The notes under the pieces are model-generated. The model was not told the DNA's origin. It did no database searches and saw only the letters and a program-made list of their open reading frames with translations. Below, one piece after another: positions 7,859-41,755 of a stretch of 41,755 nucleotides of DNA. The position numbers and the translations under genes are program-made. The DNA comes from Frankiaceae bacterium (GTDB lineage Bacteria; Actinomycetota; Actinomycetes; JAFAQI01), in NCBI GenBank assembly GCA_025929365.1, contig JAICMG010000008.1, positions 1-41,755 of the forward strand, read 5' to 3'. Each line of letters starts with the position of its first letter. The stretch's first letter is position 1.

Positions 7859-8415
7859 GAGGAGCCAGGGTAGGCGGACGCCACCAGCCGCGTCGGCTCA
7901 TTTGCGACTCGGAAGCCCGCGATCAGCGCGTTCAACAGCACGGATGCCAACGGCCACGTGAAGAGCACCGATTTCCAGCGAGCGGAGAAGTCGAAGTAGC
8001 TCAGGACGAGCTTGATGTCGGCGGAGCTGATCCCGGGCGCCCGCGCCCGCAGCACGTTGGTGAGATCGCGGTGGCCGGCGAGGTGCCCGACACGTGCGGC
8101 GACCAGCGCCCCGAGCAAGCCCCCGACCGCAAGCCCGATGAACGCGCCCGGCCCGCGGGAAGCGTGCGGTGCCGCGACCCACATCAGCGCGACGCAGACG
8201 ATGCCCGCGATGATGCCGAGCAGGCCGAGCCACAAGTCATCGCCGATGAGGGCCTTCATCGCGGAGGCGGACCCCTGCGCCGCCGCAACGATCTCCACCT
8301 GGGGCGCGAGTGCGTGCCAGAGCACCCCGACGACGGAGCCCAGCAGCGTCGCGAAAGTCGCGACCAGCAGGGCACTGCGTGCCTCCGCCCACCAGCTCAC
8401 CGGGTCGCTCAGCAC
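7855..8415 (-). CDS. DUF2567-like integral membrane protein
   Basis: About 186 aa from the GTG at 8415. The ORF-track extension to 8733 reads through the deacetylase gene in a wrong frame. Four hydrophobic segments are visible: [60 protein letters not shown] and [20 protein letters not shown]. The pattern 'TM - WxxLAP - extracytoplasmic loop - TM - RGP - TM - long loop - TM' resembles actinobacterial DUF2567 proteins, whose function is unknown; that assignment is from memory and tentative. It starts 14 nt after the deacetylase and its TGA overlaps the hisD GTG. Start is uncertain: a second GTG lies five codons inside. Confidence 0.7.
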
Positions 8416-16956: not shown

Positions 16957-17886
16957 TCAATGCGGCTCCGCCAGCATCACGAGAGCACGCGCGAGATCCT
17001 CCGGCGGCTCGCTGTCGAACCGCACCGGCGTGCCATCGGCCGGGTGGTCGAAGCCGAGCGACGCGGCATGCAGCCACTGCCGGTCCACCCCCAGCCGCGC
17101 GGCGAGCGTCGGATCGGCGCCGTACGTCAGGTCGCCGACGCAGGGATGGCGCAGCGCGGCCATGTGGACCCGGATCTGGTGGGTGCGGCCGGTCTCGAGC
17201 CGGACCTCCAACAAGCTCGCGGCGCGAAACGCCTCCACCGTCTCGTAGTGGGTGACGCTCGGCCGGCCGCCGGAGACGACTGCCCACCGATAGTCGTGAG
17301 TGGGGTGACGGGCGATCGGGGCGTCGATGGTCCCCCGGCTCGGATCGGGATGTCCCTGCACGAGAGCGAGGTAACGCTTGTCGACGGTGCGCTGACGAAA
17401 CGCGTCCTTGAGGACCGTGTACGCCCGCTCGCTCTTCGCCACCACCATGAGCCCGGTCGTGCCGACGTCGAGGCGGTGGACGACGCCCTGCCGCTCGGCT
17501 GCGCCCGAGGTCGCGACACGGTAGCCGGCCGCCGCCAGACCTGCGGTCACGGTCGGCCCGGTCCAGCCCGGGCTGGGATGAACGGCCACGCCGACCGGCT
17601 TGTCGACGACGACGATGTCCGGGTCGTCGTAGACCACCCGCAGGCCCGCGACCGGCGTCGGGTCGCGGGTGGCCGCGGCGGGCGGACCCGGCAGGGTCAC
17701 CTCGATCCAGTCACCGGCGCTCACCCGCTCCGACTTCGCCGGGGCACGACCCTCGAGCAGCACCGCACCGCTCGTCACCAGCTCGGCCGCTGCCGTACGC
17801 GACAGCCCGAACAACCGCGAGACGGCGGCATCGACCCGCGAGCCGTCAAGCCCTTCGGGCAGCGGCACCCGTCGAGCGTCGGTCAC
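16957..17886 (-). CDS. rluD: RluA/RluD-family 23S rRNA pseudouridine synthase
   Basis: 309 aa from GTG 17886, which overlaps the lspA TGA as GTGA; the track start is too far upstream. An S4 RNA-binding domain occupies roughly residues 8-65 ([16 protein letters not shown]). The catalytic domain follows: [14 protein letters not shown], then [18 protein letters not shown] with catalytic D140, KRYLALVQG, and [19 protein letters not shown]. The lspA-rluD order is conserved in many bacteria. By family this enzyme modifies the helix 69 region of 23S rRNA, but which uridines it uses here is inference. Confidence 0.93.
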
Positions 17887-18452
17887 CGCCGCGTCCCGTC
17901 CAGCTCGATGCCGCGCAGCGCCAGCAGCACGGCCAGCATGCCGCCGATCACGATCGCGGCGTCGGCGATGTTGAACACCGGCCAGTGCGGCAGCTCGATC
18001 CAGTCGACGACGTGACCGCGCAGCGGGCCCGGCGAGCGAAACAGCCGGTCGCTGAGGTTCCCGAGCGCCCCGCCGAGCATCAGTCCCAGTGACACCGCCC
18101 ACCCCGACGACACCAGCGAGCGCGCCGTGCGGGCGATCACGACGACAACGGCGACCGCCACGACCGTGAACAGGAGGGTGGCGCCGGTCCCGACGCTGAA
18201 CGCGGCACCGGCGTTGCGGGTGAACGTCAGCCACAGCACGTGCGGGACGAGTGTCACCCGCTCGCGACCCGCCAGCTCGGCGACCGCGACGAGCTTGGTG
18301 ACGACGTCGATGAGGAGCACTGCTGCCGCAATCCCGGCAACCAGCCGGGTCCGGGTCCGCCGCTGCGCCCCGGACGGTGGATCCTCGGTCAGGACGTTCC
18401 TCCCGATCCGACGGCCGGCACGCCCTAGCGCCGCTCCTCGCGTTGCTTGCAT
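17883..18452 (-). CDS. lspA: Lipoprotein signal peptidase (signal peptidase II)
   Basis: About 189 aa from ATG 18452. LspA cuts prolipoproteins before the lipidated Cys in the inner membrane. Four membrane spans are visible: [55 protein letters not shown] and [20 protein letters not shown]. The catalytic aspartates are D135 (GNLSDRLF) and D164 (FNIADAAI); [10 protein letters not shown] is the other family block. The gene starts inside the 3' end of the zinc-finger gene (28-base overlap) and has an extended basic N terminus of about 37 residues before the first helix; I see no later ATG or GTG that would shorten it. Confidence 0.95.
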
Positions 18453-19891
18453 GTCACACACAGCGTGGCACGCGGGAAGGCCTGCAGCCGCGCCTTCCCG
18501 ATCGGGTTCCCGCAGCTCTCACAGATCGGGTACGACCCGTCCTCGATCCGCTGCAGCGCCCGCTCCACCTGGGAGAGGAGATCACGGCTGTTGGCGGCGA
18601 GGGAGAGCTCGTGCTCCCGCTCGAAGGTCTTCGTCCCCGCGTCCGCCTGGTCGTCGCCGGCGCCCTCGCCGCTGTCACGCTGCAGCGCGGCCCAGGACTC
18701 CTCCGCCTCCGTGATCTCCCCGCGCAGCTCCTTGACCTGCGCCTCGAGCTCGGCCTGGATCTTCGCCAGCTCCGGCTTCTGCCATGGCCGCTCGCCCGGC
18801 AGGACCGTCGCGCCCGGCTTCGCGGCCGGCGCCGGCGGTGGCGCCTGCGCCCCTGGCATCGCGGCGGCCCGCGCGATGAGCTCGGCCCGGGTCGGAGCGG
18901 CGGGCTCGGCCGGCACCTCGGCAGCGGCCTCGGCCGCTTCGGCCGCCTGGGCGGCAGCCTTGGCCGCGGCCTTGGTCTTGACGGCGGCTTCGGCCGCGTC
19001 GACCTTGGCCAGGGCTGCCTTGGCCGCAGTTTCGGCCGGCCTCGTCGCGGGCTTCGCTGTCGCGGGCTTCGCTGTCGCGACCTTGGCGGGCGCCGCCTTG
19101 ACCGGGGCGGCCTTCCTCGCCGCGGCCTTGGCCGGCGCGGCCTTCTTGACCGCGGCCGAGGGCTGCTTCGCGACGAGCTTGACCGGAGACTTCTTGGCGG
19201 GTGTGGCCTTCTTGACTGCCGCCTGCTTCGCGGAGGCCTTGTTCTTCGGCGCGGCCTGCTTCACCGCTGGCTTCGCAGGCGCCCCTTTCTTGACCGCCGG
19301 CTTCGAGACCGCCTTCGCGGGCGCCGCCTTCTTCACCGCTGCCTTCACCGGCGCGACCTTCTTCACCGCTGCCTTCGCGGGCGCCGCCTTCTTGACCGCC
19401 GGCTTCGAGACCGCCTTCGCGGGCGCGGCCTTCTTCACCGCTGCCTTCGCGGGCGCCGCCTTCTTCACCGCCCGCTTCGAGACCGCCTTCGCGGGCGAGG
19501 CCTTCACCGGCGCGGCCTTCTTGGCGGGCGTGGCCGCGGCTTTCTTCGCGGCCGGCTTGCCTCCGGCCGGCTTCTTGGGCGCCGCTTTCTTCGCCGTCGC
19601 CGGGCGGGCGGTCTTGGTCGCTGCCTGCTTCACGAGCGCCTTTCGAGTCGCTGTCTGCTTCGCTGCCGGTGTCGCGGGTCGGGGAGCCGAAGCCGCACCG
19701 GCCTTGACCGGGCGCCGTAGCCCCGCCCCCCTCGATGCAGGACGGGGAGCCGACACCACAGCGGCTGCCGCTACCGGCGAGGCTGATGTGACGGACGGGA
19801 CGAACTCCGCCACGCCGGCGTTCGCCGGTGCGTCGCGGTGCGGCATCAGGCGGCGCAGCCGACCACCAAGGGTCGCGTGCTCCCGTGCCAT
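18425..19891 (-). CDS. TraR/DksA-type C4 zinc-finger protein with long histone-H1-like Lys/Ala tail
   Basis: 488 aa; GGGAGG lies seven bases before the ATG. The last about 130 residues are a TraR/DksA module: a helical hairpin ([23 protein letters not shown]), [23 protein letters not shown], and a complete zinc finger C457-x2-C460-x17-C478-x2-C481. Before it, roughly residues 70-300 are (A/V)KKAAPAKA-type repeats like eukaryotic histone H1 or bacterial Hc1/HU tails, then an Ala/Glu-rich stretch. DksA-like proteins bind the RNA polymerase secondary channel; the tail would bind DNA or RNA nonspecifically. A zinc-finger gene of this kind before lspA/ileS is common in actinobacteria, but this N-terminal part is unusually long. 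Combined function is inference. Confidence 0.87.
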
Positions 19892-19960: not shown

Positions 19961-20052
19961 ACCGCGCTCACCCGCCAGCAACGCAACGCGCCGAAGGGGA
20001 ATCCCTGCAGCTCTCGCCTGCCGTCAAGGCTACGCTTGCGGTTCGCAACCAA

Positions 20053-20267
20053 GGCGTTGAAGAGGCCATCACCTCGGAGCCGCCGGAAGAACGCCGATTC
20101 GCCCCAAAATGGGATAAATCGGTCATTAGAACCGGCTTGCGACCTTCGAGTGGGCCTCCCACGAGCGTGGGAGCCAAGGAGGGTGGTACCGCGGGGCCGC
20201 ACGAGCGGGCCTCGTCCCTCCGCCGACGACCACCCCCCGGCGTGCCGGGCGGATCGACGACGGAGGA
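20053..20267 (+). promoter_or_regulatory. Translational T-box riboswitch controlling ileS (Ile, AUC specifier)
   Basis: The leader contains a canonical T-box, AGGGTGGTACCGCG (20180-20193), whose TGGT bulge can pair with the NCCA end of uncharged tRNA. A short stem I is closed by GGCGTT (20053-20058) and AACGCC (20090-20095) and contains the sequence GGCCATCACC; ATC at 20068-20070 is the expected isoleucine specifier. Stem III is CTCCCACG-AG-CGTGGGAG (20156-20173). CCCTCC (20216-20221) can pair with GGAGGG just before the T-box (anti-sequestrator) or, via CCTCCG, with CGGAGG of the ileS ribosome binding site (20261-20266). There is no T-tract, so control is of translation. Ultrashort stem I is the known actinobacterial ileS type. 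Confidence 0.92.
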
Positions 20268-20271
20268 CCGG

Positions 20272-23200
20272 ATGCCGCCCCGACCCGGCTACCAGCACAT
20301 GCCGCCGCAGGTCGACCTGCCCGCGCTCGAGCACGAGGTGCTCACCCGCTGGCGGGAGCGCGACACCTTCGCCCGCAGCCTGGCTCAGACGGCCGACGGC
20401 GCGACCTGGACGTTCTACGAGGGCCCCCCGACCGCCAACGGCCGGCCCGGCACCCATCACGTCGAGGCGCGGGTCTTCAAGGACCTGTTCCCGCGCTACC
20501 AGACGATGCGTGGCCATCATGTGGAGCGCCGCGCCGGATGGGACTGTCACGGTCTCCCGGTGGAGCTCGAGGTCGAGAAGCGACTCGGCTTCTCGGGCAA
20601 GAACGACATCGAGGACTACGGCATCGAGGCGTTCAACGCCAAGTGCCGCGAGTCCGTCCTCGAGCACGTCGACACCTTCGCGCGGATGACCGAGCGCATG
20701 GGCTACTGGGTCGACCTCGACGCGGCGTACTGGACCATGGACCCGGCCTACGTCGAGAGCGTGTGGTGGTCGCTCAAGTGCATCTACGACAAGGGGCTGC
20801 TGGTCCAGGACTACCGCGTCACGCCGTACTGCCCGCGCTGCGGCACCGGCCTGTCCGACCACGAGGTGGCGCAGGGCTACCTCGACGTGACCGACCCGTC
20901 CGTCTACGTCCGGTTCCCCGTGACGAGTGGGCCGCTGGCGGAGCCGAACGCCTACGGGCGAAGCGTCGCGCTGCTGGTCTGGACGACGACCCCGTGGACG
21001 CTGGTCAGCAACACCGCCGTGGCGGTCAACCCGGCGGTGGCGTACGTCGTCGCCAGGCCGGCCGGTTCGGAGGAGCTGCTGGTCGTCGCCGAGCCGCTCG
21101 TGGGGCATGCGCTCGGTGACGGTGCCGAGATCCTCGAGCGGTTCGCGGGGACCGAGCTCGAGCACGTGACCTACTCGCGTCCGTTCGACCTGGTCGACAT
21201 CCCCGACTCGCACTTCATCGGGCTCGCGGACTACGTCACGGTCGAAGACGGGACGGGTCTCGTGCACCAGGCCCCCGCCTTCGGTGCCGACGACCTCGCG
21301 GTGGCGCGCCGTTACGGCTTGCCGGTCGTCAACCCGATCGAGGCCGACGGCCACTTCGCGACGGGTCTCCCGCTCGTCGGAGGGACCTTCTTCAAGGCGG
21401 CCGATCCGGCGATCGTCGCCGATCTCCGCGAGCGCGGGTTGCTCTACCGAAGCGAGGACTACACCCACTCGTATCCGCACTGCTGGCGGTGCGACACCGC
21501 ACTGATCTACTACGCGCTGCCCTCGTGGTACATCCGGACGACCGCGGTCAAGGACGCCCTGCTGCGCGAGAACGCCCGCACCGACTGGCACCCGGCGACC
21601 ATCAAGACCGGCCGCTACGGCGACTGGCTGAACAACAACATCGACTGGGCGCTGTCGCGCAACCGGTACTGGGGCACCCCGCTGCCGATCTGGCGTTGCG
21701 CGGACGAGCACCTCACCGTCGTCGGCTCGCTGGCCGAGCTGGGCGCGCTGGCCGGCGCGGACCTGTCGGGGCTCGACCCGCATCGGCCGTTCGTGGACGA
21801 CGTCGTGATCCGCTGCGCGACCTGCCAGGACGAGGCCCGCCGGGTGCCGGAGGTCATCGACTGCTGGTACGACGCGGGCTCGATGCCGTTCGCGCAGCAC
21901 CACTATCCGCACAAGCCCGGGTCGGTCGAGGCCTTCGAAGCCGCCTATCCCGCGCAGTTCATCTGCGAGGCACTCGACCAGACCCGCGGCTGGTTCTACA
22001 CGTTGATGGCGATCGGGACGCTCGTCTTCGACCGCTCGTCGTACGAGACCGTGCTCTGCCTCGGTCTCATCCTGGCCGAGGACGGCCGGCGGATGAGCAA
22101 GCACTTGGGGAACATCCTCGATCCGTTCGACCTCATGGAACGGCACGGCGCCGACGCGGTGCGGTGGTTCATGCTGGCCGGCGGCAACCCGTGGGCAGCA
22201 CGCCGCGTCGGCGACAAGATCCTCGACGAGGTCGTGCGCAAGGTCCTGCTGACGTACTGGAACACGGCGTCCTTCCACGTCCTGTACGCCCGGGCAAACG
22301 GGTGGACGCCGGCGGATGACGCGCCGGCGCCGGCGGACCGCCCGCTGCTCGACCGCTGGGCGCGCTCGGAGCTGCACCGCACCGTCGTCGAGGTCACCGC
22401 CGCGCTCGACGACTTCGACCCCACGCGTGCCGGACGGCGGCTCACCGAGTTCGTCGACGACCTGTCGAACTGGTACGTCCGCCGCTCGCGGCGACGCTTC
22501 TGGGACGGCGACCCGGCGGCGCTCGCGACGCTCGCCGAGTGCCTGGACGTCGTCACCCGGCTGCTCGCCCCGTTCGTGCCGTTCATCACCGATGAGGTCC
22601 ACGAGCGGCTGGTCCGCGACCTCGACCCGACCGCGCCGGACAGCGTGCACCTCGAGACGTGGCCCGCTGCCGACCCGACCGCGGTCGACGGAGCCCTCGC
22701 GGAGCAGATGTCCCTCGTCCGCAGGATCGTGGAGCTCGGCCGCTCGGCGCGGGCCGAGTCCGCGGTGCGGACCCGGCAGCCACTGGCGCGAGCCCTCGTC
22801 TCGGCTCCCGGTTGGGACCGACTGCCCGGCGAGCTCGTGGCGCACGTCGCGGACGAGCTCAATGCCCGGGTCGTCGAGCCTCTGGCTACGGCGGCAGACG
22901 GTGCCGGTGGCGCCGGAGGGCTGGTCGACGTCTCGGTCAAGGCCAACTTCCGCTCTCTGGGCAAGCGATTCGGCCCCCGCACGCCGCGGGTCGCCGCGGC
23001 GATTCAGGCGGCCGATGCGAGCGCGCTCGCCGCCGCGCTGCGCCACGCCGGCACCGCGACGGTCGACGTCGACGGCGAGAGCGTCGAGGTCGAACCGGAT
23101 GACGTGGTCACCAGTGAGACGCCCCGTGCGGGCTGGGCGGTCGCCACTGCCGGGCCTGAGACCGTCGCGCTCGATCTCGAGCTCGACGACGAGCTGCGCG

Positions 23201-23460
23201 CCGCCGGCATGGTGCGCGAGCTCGTGCGAAGCGTGCAGGAGGCTCGCAAGAGCCAGGGACTCGAGGTCACCGACCGGATCGAGCTGTGGTGGGAGTCCGA
23301 CGATGCGTCGGCGGCGGCGGCCGTCCGGGGCGCGGCCGACGCCCTTGCGGGTGAGGTGTTGGCAACGGACCTCACCGAAGGCCGGCCGGCGGCGCCGCTG
23401 GCAGACCACGCAGTGGTGGATCCACCGGTGCGCTTCTGGCTCCGTCAGGCCGGCGGGTGA
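20272..23460 (+). CDS. ileS: Isoleucyl-tRNA synthetase
   Basis: 1062 aa from ATG 20272, preceded by GGAGGA; the track start at 20137 lies inside the T-box and is rejected. Class I synthetase charging tRNA-Ile in the cytoplasm. The HIGH-equivalent is in YEGPPTANGRPGTHHVEARVF (residues 49-69) and the KMSKS-equivalent in GRRMSKHLGN near residue 606. The editing domain lies between them (TTTPWTLVSNTAVAVNP), and the anticodon-binding domain follows with LSNWYVRRSRRRFW. Length and the TANGxPGTHH form resemble the eukaryote-like type II class, which tends to tolerate mupirocin; that property is inference. It is the only synthetase in the window and is governed by the T-box just upstream. Confidence 0.97.
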   Translation: MPPRPGYQHMPPQVDLPALEHEVLTRWRERDTFARSLAQTADGATWTFYEGPPTANGRPGTHHVEARVFKDLFPRYQTMRGHHVERRAGWDCHGLPVELEVEKRLGFSGKNDIEDYGIEAFNAKCRESVLEHVDTFARMTERMGYWVDLDAAYWTMDPAYVESVWWSLKCIYDKGLLVQDYRVTPYCPRCGTGLSDHEVAQGYLDVTDPSVYVRFPVTSGPLAEPNAYGRSVALLVWTTTPWTLVSNTAVAVNPAVAYVVARPAGSEELLVVAEPLVGHALGDGAEILERFAGTELEHVTYSRPFDLVDIPDSHFIGLADYVTVEDGTGLVHQAPAFGADDLAVARRYGLPVVNPIEADGHFATGLPLVGGTFFKAADPAIVADLRERGLLYRSEDYTHSYPHCWRCDTALIYYALPSWYIRTTAVKDALLRENARTDWHPATIKTGRYGDWLNNNIDWALSRNRYWGTPLPIWRCADEHLTVVGSLAELGALAGADLSGLDPHRPFVDDVVIRCATCQDEARRVPEVIDCWYDAGSMPFAQHHYPHKPGSVEAFEAAYPAQFICEALDQTRGWFYTLMAIGTLVFDRSSYETVLCLGLILAEDGRRMSKHLGNILDPFDLMERHGADAVRWFMLAGGNPWAARRVGDKILDEVVRKVLLTYWNTASFHVLYARANGWTPADDAPAPADRPLLDRWARSELHRTVVEVTAALDDFDPTRAGRRLTEFVDDLSNWYVRRSRRRFWDGDPAALATLAECLDVVTRLLAPFVPFITDEVHERLVRDLDPTAPDSVHLETWPAADPTAVDGALAEQMSLVRRIVELGRSARAESAVRTRQPLARALVSAPGWDRLPGELVAHVADELNARVVEPLATAADGAGGAGGLVDVSVKANFRSLGKRFGPRTPRVAAAIQAADASALAAALRHAGTATVDVDGESVEVEPDDVVTSETPRAGWAVATAGPETVALDLELDDELRAAGMVRELVRSVQEARKSQGLEVTDRIELWWESDDASAAAAVRGAADALAGEVLATDLTEGRPAAPLADHAVVDPPVRFWLRQAGG

Positions 23461-24242: not shown

Positions 24243-24959
24243 TCAGCGAGCGGTCTTCTTGGCAGCGGTCTTCTTCGCCGCCGTCTTCTTGGCGGTCTTG
24301 GCCGCAGTCTTCTTGGCCGGCGCCGCCTTCTTCGCCGCAGCCTTGGCCGGAGCCGCCTTCTTCGCCGCAGTCTTCTTGGCCGGCGCCGCCTTCTTCGCCG
24401 CAGCCTTGGCCGGCGCCGCCTTCTTCGCCGCAGTCTTCTTGGCCGGAGCCGCCTTCTTCGCTGCGGTCTTCTTGGCGGTCGCGCTGTCCTGGTTGGCGAG
24501 ACGGGCCGGCAGGACGGCGCGTGGCCGGCCGGAGGTCGCGCCACGAAGCCTGCTCGAAGCAGGCGCGGACCCGGCGCGCACGGGACGACGGGTGGGAGTA
24601 GCCGGGCGACGTTCGACGACTCGCGCCGGAGCGGGCTCAGCGCGCTCCTCGAGCACCGCCGCGGTCGCCGCAGCCGCGGCCGCGCCGCCTGCCGCCGTCT
24701 CCGCCGCACGCCGACCGGCTGGGACCAGGGTCACGTCAGCCGGCTCCGCGGCCACGGCCGCGCCACCCCGAGGGGCAGCGGGTGTGAGAGAGGCGGCCGC
24801 GACCGGAACGTCACGGCGCTGGCGCACCCCGACGAGCAGGAACACGAACGACAGCACGCTGACGGCGATCGAGGCGTACACCCACGCCAGCGGGCCGAAC
24901 AACCCGATGACGAGGAACACAACCGCAATGAGCAGCAGGATCCCGCTGATGACGATCAC
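24243..24959 (-). CDS. Two-helix membrane protein with histone-H1-like Lys/Ala tail
   Basis: About 238 aa from GTG 24959, chosen for the GGAG eight bases upstream; the track start at 25067 adds a non-hydrophobic shadow. Two adjacent helices lie at the N terminus (VIVISGILLLIAVVFLVIGLFG, then AWVYASIAVSVLSFVFLLVGV). A low-complexity Ala/Pro/Arg linker of about 110 residues follows. The last about 75 residues are repeats of [26 protein letters not shown]. The tail is almost pure Lys, Ala, Thr and Pro like the H1/Hc1 nucleic-acid binders, so the protein could tether DNA to the membrane; that is inference. Gene follows divIVA in the same direction after 182 bp with no clear promoter. Confidence 0.78.
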   Translation of the reverse strand: MIVISGILLLIAVVFLVIGLFGPLAWVYASIAVSVLSFVFLLVGVRQRRDVPVAAASLTPAAPRGGAAVAAEPADVTLVPAGRRAAETAAGGAAAAAATAAVLEERAEPAPARVVERRPATPTRRPVRAGSAPASSRLRGATSGRPRAVLPARLANQDSATAKKTAAKKAAPAKKTAAKKAAPAKAAAKKAAPAKKTAAKKAAPAKAAAKKAAPAKKTAAKTAKKTAAKKTAAKKTAR

Positions 24960-25141
24960 GTCGTCGACTCCGTTTCCCTCATCGAGCTGGTGTGGTGGTG
25001 CGACGGCAGTCGCCGCGAACCCCAGGTATTTCTCGCGCTCCCGGTGATTCGCGGCAGTTGCGCACATCGTAGTGGCAGCACGAAGTCAGCAGACTAGTTG
25101 CCCCGCAATCGCGGTCCGGCCAACGACACGAGTGGCGATGC

Positions 25142-26368
25142 TCACGCCTGAGCAGGCGGTCCGCTCGGCGGATCGTCCTCCGGCTGCACCGGCTGGCTGA
25201 CGAACGTCGCCTGGCCCGGAGCTTGCGACGCGGGTGGTGCCAAGGACGGCACCGACGGGGCGGCGGCCCGCGGCGGCAGCTCGGCGGTCGGCGCGTCGGA
25301 TTCCGGCTGGCCAGGCGCTGACGCGGACGCCGCGGCCTCGGCGGCCTCGGCGAGCGCGGACCGGCCGTCGTCGGCCGGTCGCGGCGGCTGGCCGGGCTGG
25401 GCCTGCGGCGGCTGCGGCGGCGGCGCTGCCGATGCGGACGGCTGTCCCGGACCTGGCTGTCCCGGACCTGGCTGTCCCGGACCCGGCTGTCCCGGACCCG
25501 GCTGTCCCGGACCCGGCTGTCCCGGACCCGCCTGTCCCGGACCTGGCTGTCCCGGACCTGGCTGTGCCGGACCCTGACTTCCGGCAGGCGGAGCCACCGT
25601 GGGTGCCACGACGGGCGGAGGTCCGGCCGCGAAGGCGGAGGCGCTCGGCGGCCCGCCGGGACCGGCCGGTCCGGCCGGGGGCGCGTCCGCCGGCCGGGGG
25701 GTCTGCTGCACGGCAGGTGCCGGCGCACGAGGCGCTGGTGAAGCGGCCGGCAATGCGGGTTTGGGTGGCGCCGCGGGCTCGACGCTCGGCCTGGCGTCCA
25801 GGTCCTTGATCGAGGAGTCGAGGTAGGCCCGCAGCCGCGTGCGGAACTCCCGCTCGAAGCTGCGCAGCGCCACGATCTCGGCCTCGAGCGTCTTGCGGTC
25901 GTCCTCGAGCGTGGCGAGCCGGGTGTGGTGCGCGGCTTGGGCTTCGTGCTCCAGCGCCGCCGCCTTGAGCCGGGCGGAGTTGAGGATGCCTTCGGCCTCC
26001 GCATGGGCCTGTGCAATCGCTTCCTCTGCGGTCTTCTGCGCCAGCATCAGCGTCTTCAGCGCCGCGTCGCCGGTCTCCTCGTGCGCCGGAGCCGGCGGCC
26101 GGACCGGCACGGGCGGCGGGGGCGGCGGCGGCGGTGCGGCCGGCGGGGGCGTGGCCGCGGTCTGCGCCGGTGCGCTCGGTGGCGGCACCGGCGCCGCATG
26201 CGCCGCGCCCGCGACGGCCTGGCGAAGCGAGGTGTTCTCTGCGATCAGCCGGCGAAGCTCTTCCTCGATCTCGTCGAGGAAGTTGTCGACCTCCTCCTCG
26301 TCGTACCCGGACTTGAAGCGCACCACGGTGAACCGCTTGTTCTGGACGTCCTGTGGCGTGAGGGGCAT
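25142..26368 (-). CDS. divIVA: DivIVA/Wag31 polar-growth scaffold with Pro/Gly-rich repeat insert
   Basis: 408 aa. The N terminus MPLTPQDVQNKRFTVVRF...GYDEEEVDNFLDEIEEELRRLIAENTSLRQ is the DivIVA membrane-curvature-binding domain and first coiled coil. A Pro-rich linker (residues about 60-95) leads to a second long coiled coil (TLMLAQKTAEEAIAQAHAEAEGILNSARLKAAALEHEAQAAHHTRLATLE). The C-terminal half is low complexity and carries eight PGPGQ/AGPGQ pentapeptides encoded by a 15-bp tandem repeat. In actinobacteria this protein marks poles and directs wall synthesis. AAGGTGA lies ahead of the ATG. It is the usual neighbour of yggT and sepF and is larger than mycobacterial Wag31 because of the tail. 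Confidence 0.94.
   Translation of the reverse strand: MPLTPQDVQNKRFTVVRFKSGYDEEEVDNFLDEIEEELRRLIAENTSLRQAVAGAAHAAPVPPPSAPAQTAATPPPAAPPPPPPPPVPVRPPAPAHEETGDAALKTLMLAQKTAEEAIAQAHAEAEGILNSARLKAAALEHEAQAAHHTRLATLEDDRKTLEAEIVALRSFEREFRTRLRAYLDSSIKDLDARPSVEPAAPPKPALPAASPAPRAPAPAVQQTPRPADAPPAGPAGPGGPPSASAFAAGPPPVVAPTVAPPAGSQGPAQPGPGQPGPGQAGPGQPGPGQPGPGQPGPGQPGPGQPGPGQPSASAAPPPQPPQAQPGQPPRPADDGRSALAEAAEAAASASAPGQPESDAPTAELPPRAAAPSVPSLAPPASQAPGQATFVSQPVQPEDDPPSGPPAQA
25441..25576. repeat. 15-bp tandem repeat inside divIVA
   Basis: CTGTCCCGGACCYGG recurs every 15 bases from 25442: eight good copies and a ninth decayed one (CTGTGCCGGACC at 25562). Copies differ mainly by one C/T position and one G/C position. 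Because the period is a multiple of three, copy-number change keeps the frame and only lengthens or shortens the PGPGQ series. Confidence 0.97.
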
Positions 26369-41316: not shown

Positions 41317-41755
41317 CGGCGGGGCGCTCCGTGGCGATGGTGCTTCGTCGTGGCCGAGGTCGACGTGGCCGATGTCGACGTGGCCGATGTCGACGTGGCC
41401 GATGTCGACGTGGCCGATGTCGACGTGGCGGCGGCGGTCGCGGGGGACACGCTCGTCGCGGGGACCTCGCGGGCCACGACACGACCGTCGGCGCGGCGGT
41501 GATAGCCGGTCACGACCGACGGCACCAGGCCAAGAGCCTTCGCACGCTGCCGCAAGGTGATCGGCGAGGAGTCGACCTGCACCTTCTGCTCGAGCTGTTG
41601 CTCGGTGTCGGTGAGCGCGGCCAGACGCTGCTGCAACGAGGTCTGGCGGAACGCATCCTGCGCGGCGAGTGTGTGCAGCATCAGCAACGCGATCAAGCCG
41701 GCGAGCATCAAGCCGCCCACGAGCACCACGAAGGGAGTGCGACCGACGGGGCGCC
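41313..41755 (-). CDS. ftsL: FtsL-like divisome protein (5' end cut by window edge)
   Basis: Partial: the frame stays open to the window edge (RPVGRTPFVVLVGGLM...), so the track start at 41729 is not the true start. A single membrane helix (VVLVGGLMLAGLIALLMLHTLAA) is followed by a short coiled coil (DAFRQTSLQQRLAALTDTEQQLEQKVQ) and SSPITLRQRAKALGLVPS, the layout of FtsL/septum-formation initiator proteins. A Thr/Ser/Ala tail with five TSTSA repeats and a basic end (TKHHRHGAPRR) follows. Position directly before ftsI supports FtsL. Sequence conservation in this family is low, so identity rests on layout and context. Confidence 0.85.
   Translation of the reverse strand, partial: RPVGRTPFVVLVGGLMLAGLIALLMLHTLAAQDAFRQTSLQQRLAALTDTEQQLEQKVQVDSSPITLRQRAKALGLVPSVVTGYHRRADGRVVAREVPATSVSPATAAATSTSATSTSATSTSATSTSATSTSATTKHHRHGAPRR
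41350..41424. repeat. 15-bp tandem repeat inside ftsL
   Basis: GTGGCCGATGTCGAC occurs five times end to end from 41350, the first copy with GAG for GAT. A sixth partial unit decays into GTGGCGGCGG. It encodes the TSTSA series in the outer tail of FtsL. The copies are almost identical, which suggests recent slippage. Confidence 0.96.

Follow-up and report, generated by a model that had tools for sequence, protein, structure and literature searches.

The window, a stretch of 41,755 nucleotides from a Frankiaceae bacterium, carries on its reverse strand a ddbA-type gene (18425..19891) that encodes 488 amino acids plus a stop codon and begins at an ATG preceded, at normal spacing, by GGGAGG. From N- to C-terminus the product comprises a basic tip, an arm of ~240 residues, a linker, and a TraR/DksA coiled coil with a C4 zinc finger. 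GC at the third codon position lies between 0.89 and 0.93 (0.89 in the arm, 0.93 in the module), indicating that both parts are coding. Judged from its sequence, the gene is real and joins a basic arm to a head of the RNA-polymerase-regulator type; a chance low-complexity open reading frame or a wrong frame was ruled out by the coding signal, the start site and the relatives described below. A sigma-70 promoter scan gave no match. Downstream on the same strand lies lspA (signal peptidase II; 17883..18461 as the longest reading frame, its true start being probably inside), and ileS diverges on the forward strand (20272..23460). The order ileS, ddbA, lspA, rluD is common to the window and to Streptomyces loci (L035, L036 and others); lspA and then rluD follow in nearly all loci examined, and ileS lies divergently upstream where the locus extends there. 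The ileS gene has a probable T-box leader of the same, divergent orientation (20048..20222, forward strand; E = 6.9e-6, 34.3 bits against a gathering score of 93), seen in a relaxed search only, as the Rfam search at gathering thresholds found nothing. An intact AGGGUGGUACCGCG is retained in this T-box-like leader. Since the intergenic region also holds the promoter side of ddbA, isoleucine supply and ddbA could possibly be co-influenced.

The head of the protein (18428..18799, reverse strand) is a DksA/YteA-like module with a net charge of -6, made of a coiled-coil hairpin, a DQADAG tip (D414, D417, G419) and a C4 zinc finger (C457, C460, C478, C481; 18431..18538, reverse strand). In particular, residues 452-487 match the dksA/traR zinc finger of Pfam over its cut-off (PF01258, E = 1.8e-12), and phmmer against the PDB retrieves E. 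coli DksA and P. aeruginosa DksA2 at E ~1e-12. An AlphaFold model of the module built with 24 relatives (pLDDT 86.5) folds as a hairpin of two long helices with a zinc-finger end, for which the best Foldseek matches in the PDB are DksA in RNA polymerase complexes (7khi, 5vsw) and free DksA (1tjl), with E between 3e-6 and 2e-5 and TM between 0.76 and 0.82. The module also aligns to E. coli DksA from tip to zinc finger without a gap. Pfam, phmmer and AlphaFold with Foldseek thus agree on the complete C-terminal TraR/DksA C4 zinc-finger module that a first-pass annotation had proposed from the DNA alone; the family match on which that proposal was staked does exist, and a C-terminus that is not DksA-like is ruled out. 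The NCBIfam YteA and DksA profiles span the whole module with scores below their curated cut-offs: 62.8 against 115.5 bits and 63.8 against 105 bits for the DksA equivalogs, and 79 against 134 bits for the Bacillus YteA family (TIGR02890), which is the best-scoring NCBIfam profile but matches the module only (positions 3-118 of 159). By analogy with DksA, the head may be able to enter the RNA polymerase secondary channel.

Ahead of the head lies a linker (residues 301-364; 18800..18991, reverse strand) that is rich in Ala and Pro and has a net charge of zero; it is preceded by the Lys/Ala/Pro-rich, histone-H1-like arm (residues 61-300; 18992..19711, reverse strand), with a net charge of +61. 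The first-pass annotation described about 230 residues of KKAAPAKA repeats forming an H1-like tail; the length and the basic character hold, but the exact octamer occurs only five times (KKAAP seven times), the remaining units being variants, and the stretch is an N-terminal arm rather than a C-terminal tail. At the DNA level the arm consists of tandem units, of 72 and 102 bases that are ~89% alike and of 30 bases that are 83-96% alike (Tandem Repeats Finder). A coding pattern for KKAAPAK finds 10 matches in the 3.27-Mb host assembly versus none for a reversed-pattern control; all 10 are inside the window, five in the ddbA-type gene and five in a second gene at 24243-25067. In ten relatives compared with the window, the arm frame is open throughout and its net charge ranges from +49 to +80. 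Most of the ten long-armed relatives compared by eye also share an RLRRL-type basic N-terminal tip (MADERG..RLRRLFRR), which in the window protein spans residues 1-20 (19832..19891, reverse strand). The arm is most likely disordered and would coat DNA without sequence specificity.

The combination is not a novel fusion: an arm joined to a DksA-like head was published in 2013 as DdbA. Reviews present DdbA (SCO2075 of S. coelicolor) as a nucleoid-associated protein of two functions, H1-like at its N-terminus and DksA-like at its C-terminus (PMC9043899), and report that Streptomyces lacking ddbA are altered in chromosome compaction and in the stress resistance of their spores (PMC11942623). Both of these reviews cite for DdbA the work of Aldridge et al. 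(2013, Nucleic Acids Res 41:4813), the title of which asks whether DdbA couples DNA conformation and transcription. The suggestion of the first-pass annotation that the protein could couple nucleoid compaction to transcription is therefore plausible but is the published DdbA hypothesis, not a new one; its assignment of RNA polymerase binding to one part and nucleic-acid binding to the other would follow by analogy, from the family only. (The name DdbA has also been given to an unrelated Chlamydia protein; PMC8343073.) Other Streptomyces relatives stood in for SCO2075 in our comparisons. The window protein resembles them in having an N-terminal H1-like arm and a DksA-like module (~60-62% module identity), and in its site between divergent ileS and lspA-rluD. 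It differs in two respects: (i), its arm is longer, with 364 residues ahead of the module and 61 Lys; (ii), compared with the Streptomyces locus L035, it has KKAAPAKA-type units and the conserved RLRRL tip, no RLRRL-like tip being evident in L035. Architecture, module identity and locus together indicate that the window protein belongs, as a member with a long arm, to a known actinobacterial family that spans the phylum, and is an orthologue of Streptomyces DdbA.

Similar arms are found outside this family. Pseudomonas AlgP and PhaF carry a KPAA-type H1-like disordered tail, although theirs is C-terminal and attached to an unrelated domain. KPAA-repeat peptides bind DNA in vitro, and AlgP, whose KPAA tail is 154 aa long, is located at polyphosphate granules (PMC9239181). 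Given this association, and because low-complexity basic arms are not DNA-specific, the arm of the window protein might instead bind a polyanion other than DNA, in particular polyphosphate granules or RNA, so that the protein would link granules to RNA polymerase; we regard this as quite improbable, since AlgP and DdbA each have reported DNA or nucleoid links and evidence for polyphosphate was not found for the DdbA-type family.

The arm is not unique to this genome. Matches at E <= 0.001 were present in 57 of 60 sampled relatives (several of these being a distant paralogue only), and a phylum-wide draw gave matches at E <= 1e-20 in 63 of 150 genomes. A Lys-dense core is present in 80 of the 92 frames that have both ends (a set in which the window is counted and at least one locus is duplicated); the core of the window protein (221 aa, 61 Lys) is the second highest of the 92 in both length and Lys number, the median being 33 Lys. 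The first-pass annotation had proposed a survey of the tail across relatives, an absence in all of them being what would speak against it; arms are in fact present in most. The head is conserved (60-90% identity) and the arm is variable, ranging from none to ~390 residues, with arm-less heads in Streptosporangiaceae (L094, L108), in L130 and in several loci from other classes. The DdbA architecture is thus not restricted to Streptomyces: head and locus are found phylum-wide, the arm being gained and lost. The wide variation in arm length, the ~89% likeness of the tandem units, and the fact that the contigs of many metagenome-assembled relatives end within the arm could also be taken to mean that repeat slippage produced the arm as a by-product without selected function, or that assembly artefacts account for part of its length. 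This seems very improbable to us given that basic arms stand at the same locus across the phylum, also in genomes that are complete, for instance that of Candidatus Planktophila versatilis (L070, 43 Lys), and that frame and charge are maintained in the ten relatives. Contigs that break off within the arm nevertheless imply that exact lengths in such assemblies, that of the window included, need read support.

The head shares with E. coli DksA the coiled-coil hairpin, the C4 zinc finger and equivalents of D71, D74 and K139, but, besides the basic arm, it differs at the tip, DxxDxG versus DxxDxA in DksA, and at R91, K98 and R129, which are N, Q and F. The E. coli DksA residues in contact with ppGpp at site 2 are K98, R91, K139 and R129. 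Residues were counted, in E. coli DksA numbering, in 138 modules (115 from the class Actinomycetes and 23 from other classes). In the Actinomycetes-class modules, K98 is replaced by Q in all 115, R91 by N in 111 and R129 by F in 109, so that the canonical site 2 set is incomplete, and K139 is kept in all 115. The tip aspartates (D71, D74) are invariant in these modules, as are the zinc cysteines C114 and C117, with C135 found in 114 and C138 in 112; the position of A76 is G in 138 of the 138 modules. Of the 23 modules sampled from other classes, 14 keep K98, and R129 is mostly L in them. The E. coli K98A and R129A variants do not bind ppGpp at site 2, yet they retain RNA polymerase binding and still shorten promoter-complex lifetime (PMC7676912). 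Since the site 2 residues are replaced across the class, DdbA heads are probably active without ppGpp bound at site 2. R91, however, also helps to set the hairpin against the rim helices in E. coli (PMC6488371), and its replacement means that RNA polymerase binding by DdbA-type heads could be weaker or different. The replacements at site 2, which the first-pass annotation missed, weaken its simple reading in terms of ppGpp/DksA-style rRNA control.

We therefore predict from sequence that the DdbA-type protein is a secondary-channel factor that would not need ppGpp, its arm keeping it near DNA. This is contrary to the summary table of PMC11942623, in which DdbA acts together with ppGpp, and the loss of the ppGpp-binding DksA residues offers a cheap test of that stated assumption. 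The host genome encodes a Rel enzyme, so ppGpp is likely made in this bacterium.

The explanation that we favour, with good confidence, is that the window encodes a long-armed DdbA orthologue with its arm on the nucleoid and its head in the secondary channel without ppGpp at site 2. By coating DNA, the Lys/Ala/Pro arm would hold the protein at the nucleoid; the hairpin of the head would insert into the secondary channel of RNA polymerase, where, as in DksA, it could place the two tip aspartates, which are present, near the active site; and the head, as predicted, would work with site 2 empty of ppGpp. The net effect might be that transcription is adjusted, along with nucleoid compaction, in response to stress or growth phase. 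Alternatively, the arm could be the working part of a nucleoid-compacting H1-like protein, the DksA fold having been kept as a scaffold that affects transcription little. The altered compaction and stress resistance upon loss of Streptomyces DdbA would fit such a function, as would the replacement of several DksA contact residues, but the conserved part of the protein is the head and the variable part the arm, L094, L108 and L130 keep the head without an arm, and the tip aspartates do not vary within the class, all of which makes this alternative unlikely.

The same genome also contains a tail-less DksA/TraR paralogue (L002; contig C80 of G000, 8266-8370) in a 123-codon open frame, whose residues at the positions of K98 and R129 are basic as judged by eye. 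Returning to the favoured long-armed, nucleoid-bound orthologue, a broader and tentative proposal is that the actinobacterial DdbA clade is a secondary-channel factor free of ppGpp at site 2 and concentrated on the nucleoid, that arm length evolves quickly through repeat slippage and sets residence on DNA, and that the paralogue could take the ppGpp role.

The second gene with KKAAPAK units (24243-25067, reverse strand) lies near a DivIVA gene (25142-26368) and ileS. Its product is short, with an N-terminal part that appears membrane-spanning by eye and a KKAAPAK-rich C-terminal tail, and it has no match in Pfam. The repeat units of this gene are up to 97% alike, and its repeat DNA is ~78-86% like that of the ddbA arm across the longer matches. 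Strong 15-base tandem arrays also occur at 25439-25574, within the DivIVA gene (94% matches), and at 41345-41429 (97% matches).
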